NCBI RefSeq assembly: GCF_002563715.1
Contig: NZ_PDJJ01000001.1
Span: forward strand, 3,968,001-4,032,000
Length of the DNA stretch: 64,000 bases
Origin: Isoptericola jiangsuensis
GTDB taxonomy: Bacteria > Actinomycetota > Actinomycetes > Actinomycetales > Cellulomonadaceae
Direction of reading: 5' to 3'
Under the pieces are notes generated by a model. That model saw only the letters and a list, made by a program, of their open reading frames with translations. It searched no databases and had not been told where the DNA came from. The stretch's first letter is position 1; every line of letters begins with the position of its first letter. This document shows positions 18,512 through 51,565 of this stretch, one piece after another. The position numbers and the translations under genes are program-made.

Positions 18512-19258
18512 ATGGGATTCCTCGACCGACTCCTCGGCAGGTCCGACGACCGCCACCCGTCCGTGCCCGGCATGACGGGCGGCTCCGTCCCTCGCGGCTA
18601 CTCGTCGCCGACGCAGGCTCCGCGGTGGCAGCAGGGCGCGCCTGCTCCGGCGGCGCCCCGCGACCCCGACGACGTGGCGATCGACCGCTACCGCTACCTG
18701 CTGCGCACCGCGCCGCCGGACGCCGTCGAGCAGGCGCACGCCGAGGCCTTCGCCCAGCTCACGCCCGAGCAGCGCCGTAAGGTCCTGGCCGACCTCGGCG
18801 CCACCGTGCCGCCGGCGGAGCGCGCGACGTCGGACGACCCGCAGTCGCTCGCCCGCATGGCGACCCGCGCCGAGATGCGCAGCCCCGGCACGCTGGAGCG
18901 CACCTTCCGCGGCGGCCCGGGCGGAGCGCCCGGCTTCGGTGCCATGGTCGGGTCGAGCCTGCTCGGGACGGTCGCGGGTGTCGTCATCGGCTCCGCCGTC
19001 GCGAACATGCTGTTCGGTCCCGCGTTCGGCGACCCGACGACCCCCGTGGCGGAGGACGACGCCGCGGCCGCCGGTGAGGGTGACCCCGGCGCCGAGGATC
19101 CGGGCGCCGCGGACGCGGGCGCGGACGTCGGTGGTGACGTCGGAGCAGCGGACGCAGGCGCCGGCACTGACGACAGCCTGTTCGGCGGCTTCTTCGGCGG
19201 TGACGGCGGCGGAGACTTCGGAGGCGACTTCGGCGGCGGCGACTTCGGCGGCTTCTGA
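18512..19258 (+). CDS. Actinobacterial protein with one hydrophobic segment and Gly/Asp-rich tail
   Basis: The 248-residue product has a conserved-looking middle: IDRYRYLLRTAPPDAVEQAHAEAF followed by QLTPEQRRKVLADL (about 50-95). A Gly-rich hydrophobic stretch near 140-172 (MVGSSLLGTVAGVVIGSAVA) is followed by an acidic Ala/Gly/Asp tail ending in FGG/DFGG repeats. Similar proteins are widespread in actinobacteria and sometimes mislabelled as cation-transporting ATPases; no ATPase motif is present here. The ATG follows the 16-bp hairpin, with no strong Shine-Dalgarno. Function unknown. Confidence 0.7.
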   Translation: MGFLDRLLGRSDDRHPSVPGMTGGSVPRGYSSPTQAPRWQQGAPAPAAPRDPDDVAIDRYRYLLRTAPPDAVEQAHAEAFAQLTPEQRRKVLADLGATVPPAERATSDDPQSLARMATRAEMRSPGTLERTFRGGPGGAPGFGAMVGSSLLGTVAGVVIGSAVANMLFGPAFGDPTTPVAEDDAAAAGEGDPGAEDPGAADAGADVGGDVGAADAGAGTDDSLFGGFFGGDGGGDFGGDFGGGDFGGF

Positions 19259-19280
19259 CCGTCGCCGACCCCCGGAGTCA

Positions 19281-19500
19281 GCGCTGACTCACGTCGATGA
19301 GCGCTGACTGGCGGGATCCCGCGCTGACTGGCGCCATCGTGCGCTGACTGGCGGGATCCCGCGCTGACTGGCGAGATCCCGCGCTGACTGACGCCATCGT
19401 GCGCTGACTCGCGGGGATGAGCGCTGGCTGACGCCATCGTGCGCTGACTCACGAGACCCAGCGCTGACTCGCGGGGAAGTGCGCTGACTCGGCGTCGAAG
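19281..19500. repeat. 20-bp tandem repeat array 3
   Basis: Eleven units built on GCGCTGACTSGCG recur every 20 bp exactly (CTGA at 19284 through 19484). Variable halves recur non-adjacently (GGGATCCC at 19313 and 19353; GCCATCGT at 19333, 19393 and 19433), suggesting exchange between units. The last unit runs directly into the left arm of the long hairpin that begins at 19500. The array is in the 380-bp gap between convergent genes. Confidence 0.9.
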
Positions 19501-19595
19501 GTCGGTGGAGGGGGTCGCGCGTCGTCGTCAGACCCGAAGTGGAGGGCCCCCTGGGGCCCGTGAACGCGACGACGCGCGACCCCCCTCCACCGACC
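19500..19595. repeat. Long hairpin element, intergenic copy
   Basis: The left arm (19500-19527, starting GGTCGGTGGAGGGGG) pairs with the right arm (19567-19595), with one extra base in the right arm. The 39-nt core between them (19528-19566) begins TCAGACCC, contains GGAGGGCCCCCTGGGGCCCG and ends in TGAACG. It is the same core type as at 26.6, 29.8, 48.8 and 50.5 kb, but with unrelated arms. It lies between convergent genes and could terminate both. Confidence 0.85.
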
Positions 19596-19638
19596 GGAGC
19601 CCGACAGCGCGACCGACCGGAACCCGACGACGCGACCC

Positions 19639-26552: not shown

Positions 26553-26600
26553 CCTGCTCGGTCGTGTCGTCAGGAGGGCGCGACACGGGCGGGGACGTCC

Positions 26601-26857
26601 GAACGAGGTGTGCGGGTGGGGACCTGCGGTGCGCCGCTCCCAAGCCGTAGCGGAGGCCCCCCAGGGCCCGTTCGAACGAGGTGTGCGGGTGGGGACCTGC
26701 GGTGCGCCGCCGTCAAGCCGTAGCGGAGGGCCCCCTGGGGCCCGTTCGAACGAGGTGTGCGGGTGGGGACCTGCGGTGCGCCGCCGTCAAGCCGTAGCGG
26801 AGGGCCCCCCGGGGCCCGTGAGCGAGGCGGCGCACCGCAGGTCCCCACCCGCACACC
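26601..26857. repeat. Long hairpin element, tandem triple copy
   Basis: A 73-74 bp unit made of a left arm (GAACGAGGTGTGCGGGTGGG...) and a core (CAAGCCGTAGCGGAGGGCCC...) is repeated at 26601, 26674 and 26748. Only the third copy is followed by a right arm: 26754-26785 pairs perfectly over 32 bp with 26826-26857, around a 40-nt core. Copies 1 and 2 end in CCCGTTCGAAC instead of CCCGTGAGCGA. The whole array fills the 323-bp gap between the secreted-protein gene and the convergent ABC ATPase gene, so it probably also terminates transcription. Confidence 0.9.
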
Positions 26858-29684: not shown

Positions 29685-29757
29685 GGCGCGGGATCAAACC
29701 GGTGCCCGTGGGATCCGTCACGCCGCCGACCGCGACGGTGCGCATACCGGCACGAAA

Positions 29758-29791
29758 GGGCCGGACCGGCAGCATGCTGCCGATCCGGCCC
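29758..29791. repeat. 34-nt near-perfect palindrome
   Basis: GGGCCGGACCGGCAGCA and its near-complement TGCTGCCGATCCGGCCC meet without a loop; one mismatch in 17 pairs. It lies between the importer promoter and the long hairpin at 29813 and may be part of a terminator for metPS or a cruciform. Confidence 0.7.
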
Positions 29792-29812
29792 CTCGTCGAC
29801 CGACGCGCAGGG

Positions 29813-29908
29813 CGTGGTGCCCGGACCCCTGCGCGCGGTCGTCAGACGGGAAGCGCAGGGCGCGCAGCGCCCGTGAGCGCGACCGTGCGCTGGGGTCCGG
29901 GCACCACG
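29813..29908. repeat. Long hairpin element, diverged core
   Basis: The left arm 29813-29841 (CGTGGTGCCCGGACCCC first) pairs with 29880-29908: 17 perfect outer pairs, then one mismatch, four pairs, a wobble and six pairs. The 38-nt core starts TCAGACGGGAAGCGCAGGGC and ends GCGCCCGTGAGCG, like the copy at 19.5 kb but with the GC apex changed in a compensating way. It lies just past the 3' end of metS. Confidence 0.8.
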
Positions 29909-29948
29909 ACCGACGGGACCAGAGCGCCGTCCGTCCGTCACGCACGGC

Positions 29949-46695: not shown

Positions 46696-46789
46696 CGACG
46701 CCGCGACGGCACGGACGGGGACGGCGCGCCACGACCGTCCCGCGTCGGCTGCGGATAACGGTTTGCGCGCCCTGGGAGAATGGTTCGCC

Positions 46790-49700
46790 GTGAGCACCGA
46801 CCCCTCCCCCGCCGTACCGTCCCGCACGGGCGACGACGCCTCCGCCCGCCGCCGCGAGGACGGCGCACGCCCGGCAGCCGGCGCAGGCCAGGAGGACGGC
46901 CGACCCGCCGGACGGGGCGACGGCCGACGCCGCCGCGGACGTCGTCAGGGTCAGAGCGGCCGGCGCGGCGGGCCCGCCCGGGTCAGCCGCGAGCAGCTCG
47001 ACAGGGCGGCCGCCATCCGCGCCGCCGTCGAGGTGCCGCCCATCACCTACCCGGAGCAGCTCCCCGTCTCCGCGCGCCGCGCCGAGATCGCCGACGCGAT
47101 CCGCGACCACCAGGTCGTCGTCGTCGCCGGCGAGACCGGCTCCGGCAAGACCACACAGCTGCCCAAGATCCTCCTCGACCTCGGGCGCGGCCGCGCCGGG
47201 CAGATCGGGCACACCCAGCCCCGCCGGATCGCCGCCCGCTCCGTCGCCGAACGCATCGCCGAAGAGCTGGGTGGCGAGCTGGGCGGCGTCGTCGGCTACC
47301 AGGTGCGGTTCACCGACACGTCCAGCGAGGACACGCTCGTCAAGGTCATGACGGACGGCATCCTGCTCGCCCAGATCCAGCGCGACCCCGACCTCCTCGC
47401 CTACGACACCATCGTCATCGACGAGGCCCACGAGCGGTCCCTCAACATCGACTTCCTGCTCGGGTACCTGTCGCGGCTGCTGCCCCGCCGCCCCGACCTC
47501 AAGCTCGTCATCACGTCCGCCACCATCGACTCCGCCCGGTTCGCCGCGCACTTCTCCCCGTCGCACCTCGCCGAGATCGGCGGAGCCCCCCAGGCCGTCG
47601 TCGACGTCCTGCCCGACGCCGCGCCCGTCGTCGAGGTCACCGGACGCACCTACCCCGTCGAGATCCGGTACCGCCCCCTCACCCCCGACCCCGACCCCGC
47701 CGCCCCCGCGAAGAAGAAGGGGGAGGAGAAGGACCTCGTCATCGGCATCGTCGAGGCCTGCGACGAGCTCATGCGCGTCGGACCCGGCGACATCCTCGTG
47801 TTCCTCTCCGGCGAGCGGGAGATCCACGACGCCGCCGACGCCCTCGAGGGCCACCTCAAGGAACGCGTCCGCGACGTCAAGCACCCCCAGCACGTCGAGA
47901 TCCTCCCCCTGTACTCCCGGCTGTCCGCCGCCGAGCAGCACCGCGTCTTCCAGTCGCACCCCGGCCGCCGCATCGTGCTGTCCACCAACGTCGCCGAGAC
48001 GTCCCTGACCGTGCCCGGCATCCACTACGTCGTCGACCCCGGCACCGCCCGCATCTCCCGCTACTCCAAGGCGACCAAGGTGCAGCGGCTCCCCATCGAG
48101 CCCGTCAGCCAGGCGTCCGCCAACCAGCGGTCCGGCCGCTCCGGGCGCGTCGCCGACGGCGTCGCGATCCGCCTCTACTCGGCCGAGGACTTCGCGTCCC
48201 GCCCCGAGTTCACCGAGCCCGAGATCCTGCGGACCTCCCTGGCGTCCGTCCTGCTGCAGATGATCTCCGTCGGCGTCGTCACCACCCCCGACGACGTCGC
48301 GAAGTTCCCGTTCGTGGAACCCCCGGACACCCGCGCCGTCCGCGACGGCGTCCAGCTCCTCACCGAGCTCGGCGCCCTCGGCCGCCGGCACGGGCGCGAC
48401 GGCACGGCGTCGAACGACGTGCACCTCACCGACATCGGCCGCACCCTCGCCCGCCTCCCCATGGACCCCCGCCTCGCGCGCATGGTCATCGAGGGCGCCC
48501 GCCTCGGCGTCGCCCACGAGGTCGCGATCATCGCCGCCGCCCTGTCCATCCAGGACCCGCGCGAACGCCCCACCGAGTCCCGCGAGCAGGCCGACCAGCT
48601 CCACCGCCGGTTCACCGACCCGACGTCCGACTTCCTCACCTACCTCAACCTGTGGGAGTACCTGCGCGAGCAGCAGCACTCCATGGGTTCGTCGGCGTTC
48701 CGCCGCCTGTGCAAGGCGGAGCACGTCAACTTCCTGCGCTTCCGCGAGTGGCAGGACGTCGTCGCGCAGCTCCGGTCCATGGCGAAGCAGCTCGACATCG
48801 ACATCTCGTACCAGCCCCGCACACGTCCGGTGGTGTCCGAGGGTGTCGACGCGCCGCCTCGCTCACGGGCCCCAGGGGGCCCTCCGCTACGGCTTGACGG
48901 CGGCGCGTCGACACCCTCGGACACCACCTCGGCGACGCAGCCGGACGGTCGACGATCCGCTCCCCCGGCCGGTGCTGCGACAGACGGTGGGGAGACGCAG
49001 GACTGGCGGCGCGTCTGGGACGGGGACACCGTGCACCGGGCACTGCTGAGCGGCATGCTGTCGCAGATCGGCATGCAGGACACCGGCGAGATCAAGGCGT
49101 CGTCGGTGGCGCACCTGCGCGGCGAGGCGCGCGCCCGCGCGCTGCGGCAGGCCGCGAAGCGGGCCCGCAACGAGTACCTCGGTGCCCGCGGGGCGCGGTT
49201 CGCGATCTTCCCCGGCTCGCCGCTGAGCAAGAAGCCGCCCGAGTGGATCATGGCCGGCGAGCTCGTCGAGACGTCCCGGCTGTGGGCGCGCGACGTCGCG
49301 AGGATCCAGCCGGAGTGGGCCGAGGCCCTGGCCGGGGACCTCGCCAAGCGCACCTACTCCGACCCGCACTGGTCGACGAAGCAGGGCGCCGCCATGGCCA
49401 CCGAGAAGGTGCTGCTGTACGGCGTGCCCGTCGTCGCCGACCGGCCCGTGCTGTACGCCCGGGTCGACCCCGAGGCCGCACGCGAGATGTTCGTCCGCCA
49501 CGCCCTCGTCGAGGGGCAGTGGACCACGCACCACCGGTTCTTCGCCGAGAACCGGCGCCTCCTCGCCGAGGCGGAGGAGCTCGAGGCCCGGTCCCGGCAG
49601 CGCGGCCTCGTCGCGTCCGAGGACGACCTGTTCGCCTTCTACGACGAGCGCGTCCCCGCCGACGTCGTCAGCGCCCGCCACTTCGACACCTGGTGGAAGC

Positions 49701-51565
49701 AGGCGCAGCGGGACACCCCCGATCTGCTCACCTTCACCCTCGACCAGCTGGTCGACGCCGACGCCGTGGACACCGCCGCGTTCCCCGAGACGTGGACCCA
49801 GGGCGAGGTCACCCTGCCCCTCACCTACCAGTTCTCCCCCGGGACCGACGCCGACGGCGTCACCGTGCACGTCCCCGTCTCCATCCTCAACCGGGTCTCC
49901 CCCGCCGGGTTCGACCGCATGGTCCCCGGCCTCCTCGACGAGCTGTGCGTCGCCACCATCCGTTCCCTGCCCAAGGCCGTGCGCCGCGAGCTCGTCCCCG
50001 CCCCGGACGTCGGCACCGCCGTCGCCGACTGGATCCGCGCGAACACCCCCGCCTGGGCGGACATGACGCGCGCCGGGGAGATGGCGCCGCCCTTCCACGT
50101 CGAGTTCACGCGCGCCGTCCGCGCCCTGCGCGACGTCGTCATCGACGACGACGTGTGGGACGCCGAGCGCGTCGAACGCCTTCCCGCGCACCTGCGCATG
50201 ACGTTCCGCGTCGAGGGCGCGCCCGCCGCCGACACGGCAGCGAACGGACGCCCGGCCAAGGGCCGGGGCCGACGTCCGGGCGGTGGCCGCGGCCGCGGCG
50301 CGCCGGCATCGAGCGAGCCCGTCGTCCTCGGCGAGTCGAAGGACCTGCTGTCCCTCCAGAAGCGGTTCGCCGCCCAGGCGGAGGCCGCCGTCCGCGCCGC
50401 GGTCAAGGGCGCTGTCGGGCTGGCGCTCGACGAGGCGCGGGCTGCGTCCTCCGGCGCACCGGGCGTGACCGACGAAGCGACGAAGGTGGCGGGTGCGGGT
50501 GTCGGTGCGCCGCCGTCAAGCCGTAGCGGAGGGCCCCCTGGGGCCCGTGAGCGAGGCGGCGCACCGATGGCCGCACCCGCCACCGACCCCACCAGCGTCG
50601 TCCGCGAGGAGGCAGGGCTGACGACGTGGCCGTCGTCGCTCGTCGACGGCGTGCTGCCCGACGCGGTGTCGACGGACCTCGGGGGCGGCGTCGTGGTGCG
50701 CGGGTACCCGGCGCTCGTCGAGGAGGCAGGTGCCAAGGGCTCCGGATCCGGCGCCGCGCCGTCGGTGGCGCTGCGGGTCCTGGCGGACGTGACCGAGCGG
50801 GACGTCGTGCACGCGCGCGGGGTGCGACGCCTGCTGCTGTCCGAGACGGCGCTGGCGACCGGCCGCGTGTCGTCGCGGTGGTCAGGGAACCAGGCGCTGA
50901 CGCTCGCGGCGGCGCCCTACCGGAACACCGACGCGCTCGTGGCGGACCTCCAGCTGGCTGCCGTCATCGCGCTGACCAGCCCGGACGCCGACAAGGCACC
51001 GGGGACGCCGACCGGCGGACCGGACGCTGTACAGATCAGGGACGCCGAGTCGTACAAGGCGGCGCTGACGTTCGTCCGGCAGCACCTGGAGGACGAGGTG
51101 CACCGGGTCGTCGGGCACGTCGTCGCCGCGCTCACGGCCTGGCGCACCGTCGAGGGCGAGGTGCGGGCGTCGTCGTCCCTGGCCCTGCTCAACACGCTGC
51201 AGGACGTCCGCGAGCACGTCGCCACCCTGGTCCACGCCGGGTTCGTGTCCGCGACGCCGCCACGGCGGCTGCCGCACCTCGTGCGCTACCTGCGGGCCGA
51301 CTCGTACCGGCTCGACAAGGCGCAGGCCAACCCGGTCCGCGACGGCGAGCTCGCCTGGCGCATCCGGGACGTGACCGGCGTGTACGAGCAGGCGCGTGCC
51401 ACGTACGCGGCCGGGGCGCCCGACCCCGCCCGGGCCGCCGAGCTGGCCGACGTCCGCTGGCTGCTGGAGGAGCTGCGGGTCTCCCTGTTCGCGCAGCAGC
51501 TCGGCACCGACGGCTCCGTCAGCGAGAAGCGCATCCGCAAGATCCTCAGCCCCGGCGGCTGGTGA
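46790..51565 (+). CDS. hrpA: HrpA-type DEAH RNA helicase carrying two in-frame hairpin elements
   Basis: The 1591-residue DEAH/RHA helicase has Walker A GETGSGKTT (114-122), DEAH (211-214), SAT (243-245) and QRSGRSGR (446-453), followed by HA2/OB-fold regions and a C-terminal DUF3418-type domain. HrpA enzymes rescue stalled ribosomes and remodel mRNA; E. coli HrpA is about 1300 residues. Part of the excess here comes from Arg/Gly/Asp-rich termini and from two copies of a long hairpin element, at residues about 680-713 and 1234-1264, each read through in frame without stops. They fall in likely linkers. The GTG at 46790 is chosen; the 9 codons upstream look non-coding. Confidence 0.93.
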   Translation: MSTDPSPAVPSRTGDDASARRREDGARPAAGAGQEDGRPAGRGDGRRRRGRRQGQSGRRGGPARVSREQLDRAAAIRAAVEVPPITYPEQLPVSARRAEIADAIRDHQVVVVAGETGSGKTTQLPKILLDLGRGRAGQIGHTQPRRIAARSVAERIAEELGGELGGVVGYQVRFTDTSSEDTLVKVMTDGILLAQIQRDPDLLAYDTIVIDEAHERSLNIDFLLGYLSRLLPRRPDLKLVITSATIDSARFAAHFSPSHLAEIGGAPQAVVDVLPDAAPVVEVTGRTYPVEIRYRPLTPDPDPAAPAKKKGEEKDLVIGIVEACDELMRVGPGDILVFLSGEREIHDAADALEGHLKERVRDVKHPQHVEILPLYSRLSAAEQHRVFQSHPGRRIVLSTNVAETSLTVPGIHYVVDPGTARISRYSKATKVQRLPIEPVSQASANQRSGRSGRVADGVAIRLYSAEDFASRPEFTEPEILRTSLASVLLQMISVGVVTTPDDVAKFPFVEPPDTRAVRDGVQLLTELGALGRRHGRDGTASNDVHLTDIGRTLARLPMDPRLARMVIEGARLGVAHEVAIIAAALSIQDPRERPTESREQADQLHRRFTDPTSDFLTYLNLWEYLREQQHSMGSSAFRRLCKAEHVNFLRFREWQDVVAQLRSMAKQLDIDISYQPRTRPVVSEGVDAPPRSRAPGGPPLRLDGGASTPSDTTSATQPDGRRSAPPAGAATDGGETQDWRRVWDGDTVHRALLSGMLSQIGMQDTGEIKASSVAHLRGEARARALRQAAKRARNEYLGARGARFAIFPGSPLSKKPPEWIMAGELVETSRLWARDVARIQPEWAEALAGDLAKRTYSDPHWSTKQGAAMATEKVLLYGVPVVADRPVLYARVDPEAAREMFVRHALVEGQWTTHHRFFAENRRLLAEAEELEARSRQRGLVASEDDLFAFYDERVPADVVSARHFDTWWKQAQRDTPDLLTFTLDQLVDADAVDTAAFPETWTQGEVTLPLTYQFSPGTDADGVTVHVPVSILNRVSPAGFDRMVPGLLDELCVATIRSLPKAVRRELVPAPDVGTAVADWIRANTPAWADMTRAGEMAPPFHVEFTRAVRALRDVVIDDDVWDAERVERLPAHLRMTFRVEGAPAADTAANGRPAKGRGRRPGGGRGRGAPASSEPVVLGESKDLLSLQKRFAAQAEAAVRAAVKGAVGLALDEARAASSGAPGVTDEATKVAGAGVGAPPSSRSGGPPGARERGGAPMAAPATDPTSVVREEAGLTTWPSSLVDGVLPDAVSTDLGGGVVVRGYPALVEEAGAKGSGSGAAPSVALRVLADVTERDVVHARGVRRLLLSETALATGRVSSRWSGNQALTLAAAPYRNTDALVADLQLAAVIALTSPDADKAPGTPTGGPDAVQIRDAESYKAALTFVRQHLEDEVHRVVGHVVAALTAWRTVEGEVRASSSLALLNTLQDVREHVATLVHAGFVSATPPRRLPHLVRYLRADSYRLDKAQANPVRDGELAWRIRDVTGVYEQARATYAAGAPDPARAAELADVRWLLEELRVSLFAQQLGTDGSVSEKRIRKILSPGGW
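48829..48928. repeat. Long hairpin element inside hrpA, copy 1
   Basis: GGTGGTGTCCGAGGGTGTCG... (48829-48858) pairs perfectly over 30 bp with 48899-48928. The 40-nt core between them is the exact reverse complement of the core in copy 2 and of the 26.7 kb array type. It is read as DAPPRSRAPGGPPLRLDGGA within the helicase. Confidence 0.92.
50489..50580. repeat. Long hairpin element inside hrpA, copy 2
   Basis: The left arm 50489-50514 and right arm 50555-50580 pair at 23 of 26 positions; the three mismatches are adjacent. The 40-nt core (50515-50554) is identical to that of copy 1 but in the opposite orientation. It is read as APPSSRSGGPPGARERGGAP. Confidence 0.9.

Follow-up and report, generated by a model that had tools for sequence, protein, structure and literature searches.

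We found that the two hairpin segments lying in frame within hrpA are members of a dispersed family of ~100-bp hairpins carried by Isoptericola and its relatives. The family is notable for the near-constant length of its arms and for the in-place inversion of its long core. On balance, with somewhat better than even confidence, we interpret it as a dispersed hairpin family with a role at RNA 3' ends, whose arms are kept, and whose core is flipped, by template switching. The hairpins seem to form an undescribed family within a known sort of repeat and do not look like a novel class of mobile DNA. A search by sequence strings, organism and feature words, which covered titles and abstract openings and left most subscription journals outside, returned no published description of these hairpins that we recognised. 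Below, the window is the whole 64,000-nt stretch of DNA that was analysed, G000 is the genome containing it, and other G numbers denote the genomes of relatives, G012 being that of the sister species.

The hrpA ORF (46763-51565, plus strand; start codon uncertain) is an open frame with Pfam matches (DEAH helicase, OB_NTP_bind, DUF3418) and contains both hairpins. The first (site 1, 48829-48928, minus strand) has its core at 48855-48901 on the minus strand; the second (site 2, 50485-50584, plus strand) has its core at 50512-50558 on the plus strand. Both cores match the 47-nt sequence GCCGTCAAGCCGTAGCGGAGGGCCCCCTGGGGCCCGTGAGCGAGGCG with 0 mismatches, bearing out the claim of a preliminary description that an identical core occurs twice in hrpA in opposite orientations. 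Its account of the arms stood for site 1, where 30 of 30 bases pair; its span for site 2 was too narrow and omitted outer paired bases, and the arms there form 30 pairs with 3 mismatches (27/30). Both segments are, as it had stated, stop-free in the hrpA frame, and they are located in linkers, which it had called likely. This read-through is unremarkable, because four of the six frames of the core are free of stops (by eye). On RNA folding, the hrpA hairpins gave z scores of -10.5 and -8.2 relative to shuffles, and the four copies folded ranged from -5.9 to -10.5.

The core also occurs in intergenic DNA near 26.6 kb, again as described earlier. A third copy of GCCGTCAAGCCGTAGCGGAGGGCCCCCTGGGGCCCGTGAGCGAGGCG (26783-26829, plus strand, 1 mismatch) lies in a hairpin between convergent genes (26756-26855, plus strand), 21 nt from the 3' end of the minus-strand gene; G012 and G008 have no hairpin there. 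It is preceded by two truncated tandem copies (26597-26743, plus strand), units of 73-74 bp that hold the left arm, core and inner stem and are missing the right arm. At up to 3 mismatches, these three copies of GCCGTCAAGCCGTAGCGGAGGGCCCCCTGGGGCCCGTGAGCGAGGCG are the only ones in the single-contig, 4.04-Mb G000 genome. A 24-nt piece of GCCGTCAAGCCGTAGCGGAGGGCCCCCTGGGGCCCGTGAGCGAGGCG matched the window five times, the two additional matches being the truncated copies (at 26639 and 26712). Chance can be ruled out as the origin of the repeated core, since 0.00 such matches were expected (100 shuffles) and reversed-pattern controls gave 0. The window holds two related hairpins: one at 19498-19597 (plus strand) has the common intergenic core type (..TCAGACCCGAAGTGGAG-stem-GTGAACG..) and an indel that breaks the pairing of its arms, and one at 29811-29910 (plus strand) has the inner-stem variant GGGCGCGCAGCGCCC; the G012 element at the same place as the latter has largely different arms (16/26 alike).

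Several other features adjoin these hairpins. Arrays of short repeats around GCGCTGACTCGCG occupy intergenic gaps next to hairpins, at 19258-19497 in the window and at loci L111, L113, L126 and L177; one single-arm hairpin site of G012 also stops at a repeat of this kind. A short palindrome at 26560-26590, CGTGTCG..CGACACG around TCAGGAGGGCG, precedes the tandem copies at 26.6 kb and resembles an intergenic-type element that has collapsed. The 29.8-kb element is immediately preceded by a conventional-looking terminator hairpin (29757-29796, GGGCCGGACCGGCAGCATGCTGCCGATCCGGCCC), which has a counterpart in G012. Searches for tRNA, tmRNA and Rfam families returned 0 matches in the window, and Rfam run over 19-30.5 kb gave sub-threshold hits only (among them F6 on the 19.5-kb element, 26.5 bits against the 46 needed, E 0.31). 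We reject identification of the hairpin as a tRNA, a tmRNA or a known Rfam RNA, as nothing in the window exceeded a gathering score.

The elements share one layout: a stem of ~30 bp, an asymmetric conserved internal loop (about GTCAnnCCGnAGnGGAG / GTGAnCG) and a short GC-rich inner hairpin. In a set of 70 elements, orthologous copies included, 65 had arms of 28-32 bp; in a set of 27 picked by core sequence alone, 26 had arms of 27-33 bp. Because the core-only set behaves alike, the constancy is not an artefact of the model. The outer stem covaries strongly: 25 of its 28 pairs were changed on both sides, and the share of cells that pair, 89.7%, greatly exceeds that in shuffles and slid controls. 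Palindrome-cleaving nucleases are a possible limit on arm length, and a ceiling from such nucleases together with a floor from function would fit the near-constant length.

The arms differ among copies and nevertheless share features that argue against their being made anew at each site, as the preliminary description had supposed: besides the constant length, they show positional preferences, and some copies share arms. At one position, 23 pairs away from the loop, 62 of 69 elements have G; 64 of 70 have a purine-rich 5' arm, and many arms end in CCnCCGC-like sequence. Copies at five G000 and four G012 places align along their arms, with GAAGG at the left edge and CCGG at the right edge in 8 of 9. 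Among 20 G000 copies (190 pairs), one pair is alike at all 18 outer arm bases, where shuffles reach at most 15, and four further pairs reach 15/18; most other arm pairs are not demonstrably alike in ungapped comparison. The two hrpA arms, which had been called unrelated, are not clearly so: beyond the 8 innermost bases they agree at 15 of 22 positions, with p 0.0018 in an ungapped shuffle test but p 0.11 in a gapped one. Against the 26.8-kb arm, the hrpA arms gave non-significant p values when ungapped (0.58 and 0.26) and gapped values of about 0.04 for both. No terminal sequence of the kind that marks a MITE was common to the copies inspected.

We searched for the family with three probes. 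A pattern of the two loop halves (AGCCGTAGCGGAG, GTGAGCGAG) found 19 stretches among 84,980 species genomes, in Isoptericola, Promicromonospora, Antribacter, Cellulosimicrobium and Miniimonas; it matched 16 of the 221 genomes of the bacterial family, and its reversed control matched 0. A covariance model (R1) built from 25 elements, for which presence alone was used per genome because at most 18 candidates (10 in the wider sample) were scored in each, matched 41 of the 221 at E<=0.001; in an order-wide sample, matches at E<=1e-4 came from 11 of 396 genomes, 9 of the same family and 2 of another. The model also revealed a second core type, GTCAGACCCGAAGTGGAG-stem-GTGAACG, which is the commoner one in Isoptericola. 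A pattern of the inner stem, at up to 2 mismatches, matched all 18 genomes of the genus, 33 times in G000, 36 times in G012 and 1-7 times in each of the 16 others (reversed control 0; a few of the 2-mismatch matches may be chance). The dispersed family that the preliminary description anticipated does exist, with a conserved core and differing arms.

Inner stems differ between species. In G000 they are nearly uniform, 28 of 29 exact pattern matches being GGGCCCCC(T/C)GGGGCCC; G012 mixes this form with CGCCCCCTGGGGCGC, and several other species have GGGCGCCCTGGCGCCC. Such species-specific types (GGG..CCC near-uniform in G000, mixed with CGC..GCG in G012) suggest concerted change among dispersed copies.

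We next consider position. With gene calls from a purpose-made codon-usage gene finder, 99 of 113 elements (orthologous copies included) are intergenic and 14 lie in ORFs. When intergenic elements are read in the plus orientation, 83 of the 99 have the 3' end of a minus-strand gene to their right, at a median distance of 41 nt; the other 16 have no called gene 3' end on the expected side, and 3 of these stand at a locus edge. In convergent gaps, 67 of 70 elements are nearer to that minus-strand gene. Where a stretch has two intergenic elements, their order is minus then plus in 12 of 12 cases, the arrangement that one hairpin per convergent gene would give. This fixed relation to the gene end points to a role at the RNA 3' end. 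We infer that the hairpins, once transcribed, terminate transcripts or stabilise their 3' ends in the U-poor manner found in GC-rich bacteria. Stable, U-poor hairpin 3' ends have been described in Streptomyces (PMC8269248, available part), and the family resembles the U-lacking (I-shaped) ends presented there: a stable GC-rich stem soon behind the stop codon, close to where the transcript or gene ends, with little or no U tract. Unlike those ends, which in the same part of that source are defined by structure alone, the present family has a conserved apical sequence, and its part in termination is putative.

The hrpA sites in other species provide the clearest view of core inversion. Alignment of hrpA orthologues confirmed that empty sites exist: the site-2 element is present in 8 of 18 Isoptericola genomes (G000, G002, G008, G009, G011, G012, G016 and G017) and absent from 10, with three genomes in which search words did not delimit the site (G011, G014, G012) read separately. 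In the hrpA tree, a branch with 98/98 support splits the carriers from the ten species lacking the element, so that a single gain (or a single loss) would be the simplest reading. The core is antisense to hrpA in seven of the eight carriers and sense in G000, and the arms of G000 and G012 align (shuffle p 0.0025). Since the arms are homologous and the cores opposite, the core has been inverted between its arms. The view that opposite orientations signal separate insertions is not supported, the site being orthologous in eight species with the core inverted in one.

Site 1 is more varied. Its core is on the minus strand in G000 and G012 and on the plus strand in G009, and G001, G004 and G014 have a different palindrome there; in the 5 of 18 genomes in which the site was not delimited, a core search gave no second core match. 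Beyond the inner 8 bases, the site-1 arms of G009 and G012 are weakly alike (p 0.025), and those of G000 and G012 are not significantly so (p 0.65). The palindromes in G001, G004 and G014 (L061, L073, L063), like one in a linker of G009 (L172) discussed below, belong to a second kind with arms of ~14-15 bp, some with a GGTAT(A/G)-like core.

To see how arms change, we compared the stems of 16 element pairs (412 stem pairs), 14 between G000 and G012 and 2 within Promicromonospora, the latter judged orthologous by the resemblance of their arms and of their unaligned flanks. Of the 20 G000-G012 pairs, 4 had been excluded beforehand for indels or strongly different arms (L112 and three window pairs), and 2 were dropped by the script. 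Stem pairs differed in 54 of 412 cases. Of these, 37 are Watson-Crick in both elements and changed on both sides, 21 of the 37 by transversion, although some of the transversions counted may be alignment shifts; the other 17 are not Watson-Crick in one or both elements, 8 of them as G.T. In a separate count of mismatched stem cells, G.T accounts for 25 of 59, no clear excess over the single-transition expectation.

These observations suggest template switching as the likeliest mechanism for the upkeep and flipping of the hairpins. At the replication fork, a palindrome that is already present would be open to template switching: one arm would template the other, so that arm sequence could change with self-complementarity kept, and copying of the spacer in inverted order would flip the core in place. 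Core conservation, arm variation and opposite orientations could in this way arise without a transposase. Under this mechanism one would expect changes to be paired whatever their type, spacers to be inverted, and coding DNA to be affected as well; we found paired arm changes (37/54), copies within genes and one clear spacer inversion with the arms kept, at hrpA site 2. Homogenisation of arms and inversion of spacers by template switching have been reported, with bacterial data favouring transversions (PMC8604942), and stem and loop changes of this sort are known in RNA genes, where loop inversions are rare (PMC8794818), as far as the available parts of these sources go. The family resembles the template-switched short inverted repeats in these accounts in arm homogenisation, spacer inversion and occurrence in coding DNA as well. 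It differs from the cases they describe, in which inverted spacers are a few bases long, in its ~40-nt spacer, its ~30-bp arms and its being a dispersed bacterial family.

Some results sit less easily with template switching. Published spacer or loop inversions involve a few bases, here about 40, and we have a single clear core inversion. The differences between G000 and G012 in the site-1 arms (p 0.65) and at 29.8 kb (16/26 alike) exceed simple arm drift, and some orthologous arms retain mismatches (hrpA site 2; a G000 copy in a second gene, below). Selection for pairing could, moreover, also give compensated changes. By that account a structured 3'-UTR RNA, with mismatches selected against and no special mutational process, would be enough, and both the strong stem covariation and the fixed orientation behind genes agree with it. 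Such selection should, however, proceed by way of G-U pairs and favour transitions; the lack of G-U enrichment and the 21 transversions among 37 double changes therefore count against it. Nor would RNA selection lead one to expect that copies in coding frames stay paired, or that one core is inverted. We regard RNA-level selection alone as possible but unlikely.

Eight of the 14 ORF copies are in hrpA of several species; the others lie in gcvP (glycine dehydrogenase), a gene for an alpha/beta-hydrolase/AMP-ligase fusion (which we take to be oleBC-like), an ABC exporter subunit, an RNase H/AAA protein and a pfkB-like kinase. We propose that ORF copies may be tolerated because they fall in linkers. 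Among 19 gcvP orthologues given, from which 16 linkers were extracted, the model found the element in G019, G023 and G183; the linker of G057, a genome that the covariance model does not match, has a look-alike with another core (by eye). In these four genomes, which belong to three genera, the hairpins of one gcvP linker have different cores. Where other genera hold hairpins, the gcvP linker of G022 (L140) has another palindrome (CGCAACGTCCGAGCTCCGTGG..CCACGGAGTGCGGACGTTGCG), outside this family. In the oleBC-like linker of 18 Isoptericola (by eye), the core is in one orientation in 6 genomes and in the other in 1; single genomes have a deletion scar (G006, with parts of both arms), an apparent remnant and a different palindrome, and 8 have none of these. 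The G000 copy in this linker is the one that retains arm mismatches.

The differing cores of the gcvP linker, together with inner stems that are near-uniform in G000, mixed in G012 and different elsewhere, hint that the core itself may be a minimal selfish cassette: it would replace the loops of existing hairpins by gene conversion or template switching and sweep through a genome, leaving the arms site-specific. We think this rather improbable.

Gain and loss were assessed between G000 and G012. For 23 G000 elements an orthologous G012 stretch was available; a counterpart is present in 20 cases and missing in 3, so turnover does occur but is not fast. One of the three is the 26.8-kb element, where 323 bp separate the stop codons in G000, 12 bp in G012 and 27 bp in G008; this site, empty in both relatives compared, agrees with the earlier view of a dispersed element with sites that lack it. 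At the other two, one site retains a single arm and one element is absent.

The preliminary description had proposed that a mobile core inserts and makes its arms by inverted duplication of flanking host sequence. Four comparisons lend this some support: the outer arms in gcvP end in conserved LPA codons that the opposite arm complements (4 genomes, 3 genera; by eye); the site of one G000 element retains a single arm in G012; the oleBC-like linker of G010 resembles one G004 arm; and right-arm codons of site 1 in G009 resemble the linker of G008 and G011, both without the element (by eye). But each of two of these has another reading. In G012 the single-arm site stops at a TGCGCTGACT repeat, which could be the trace of a deletion, and the G006 oleBC-like linker is a deletion scar; the gcvP codons overlap the CCnCCGC-like ends of arms. 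Near-constant arm length and arms common to copies at different places are also contrary to flank copying. At 26.8 kb, the 32-nt arm gave no better match than shuffled arms: of 200 shuffles, 190 and 196 reached its score against the two empty sites, and 140 did so against its own flanks. This comparison goes against the claim that arms are copied from neighbouring host sequence, although the element may have been lost in both relatives. Altogether, we consider flank copying very unlikely.

We give still less credence to a REP-like non-autonomous transposon moved by a RAYT (Y1 tyrosine) transposase. The family has traits of the GTAG- and CGTC-tagged REPs as the available part of PMC3733652 describes them: dispersed palindromes, positions 3' of genes and between convergent genes, and intragenic copies, some in frame and including RNA helicase genes. 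By the same description, however, REPs have stems of 5-13 bp and an unpaired terminal GTAG or CGTC, unlike the present elements, which have ~30-bp stems, no terminal tag and a single orientation to the nearest upstream gene. The ends here are site-specific arm sequence, and GTAG and CGTC strings lie in or beside the loop in the elements inspected. Of the 221 family genomes, 2 have Y1_Tnp (PF01797); neither is among the 41 that the model matches, and on this ground we reject RAYT-driven movement.

Rickettsia palindromic elements (RPE) are palindromes that lie in frame inside unrelated proteins. Compared by description, the present hairpins are like them in having in-frame copies in unrelated genes that are absent in relatives. 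They are set apart, again by description, in being mostly intergenic and oriented, with a conserved core and co-varying arms. RPE are mentioned in the available part of PMC3733652. Selection of the coding insertions for a peptide added to HrpA, suggested by the retention of site 2 in all 8 species of one clade, is extremely unlikely, as the peptide varies with orientation (APPSSRSGGPPGARERGGAP vs APPRSRAPGGPPLRLDGGAP), the arms encode different residues in different species and other proteins carry similar inserts.

Our results indicate that two sister genomes offer tens of parallel hairpins each, both genic and intergenic, through which the homogenisation of arms and the inversion of a ~40-nt spacer can be tracked. 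The part that template switching plays in the upkeep of perfect bacterial hairpins thereby becomes directly testable, and for a group of high-GC bacteria the family indicates a likely 3'-end signal.
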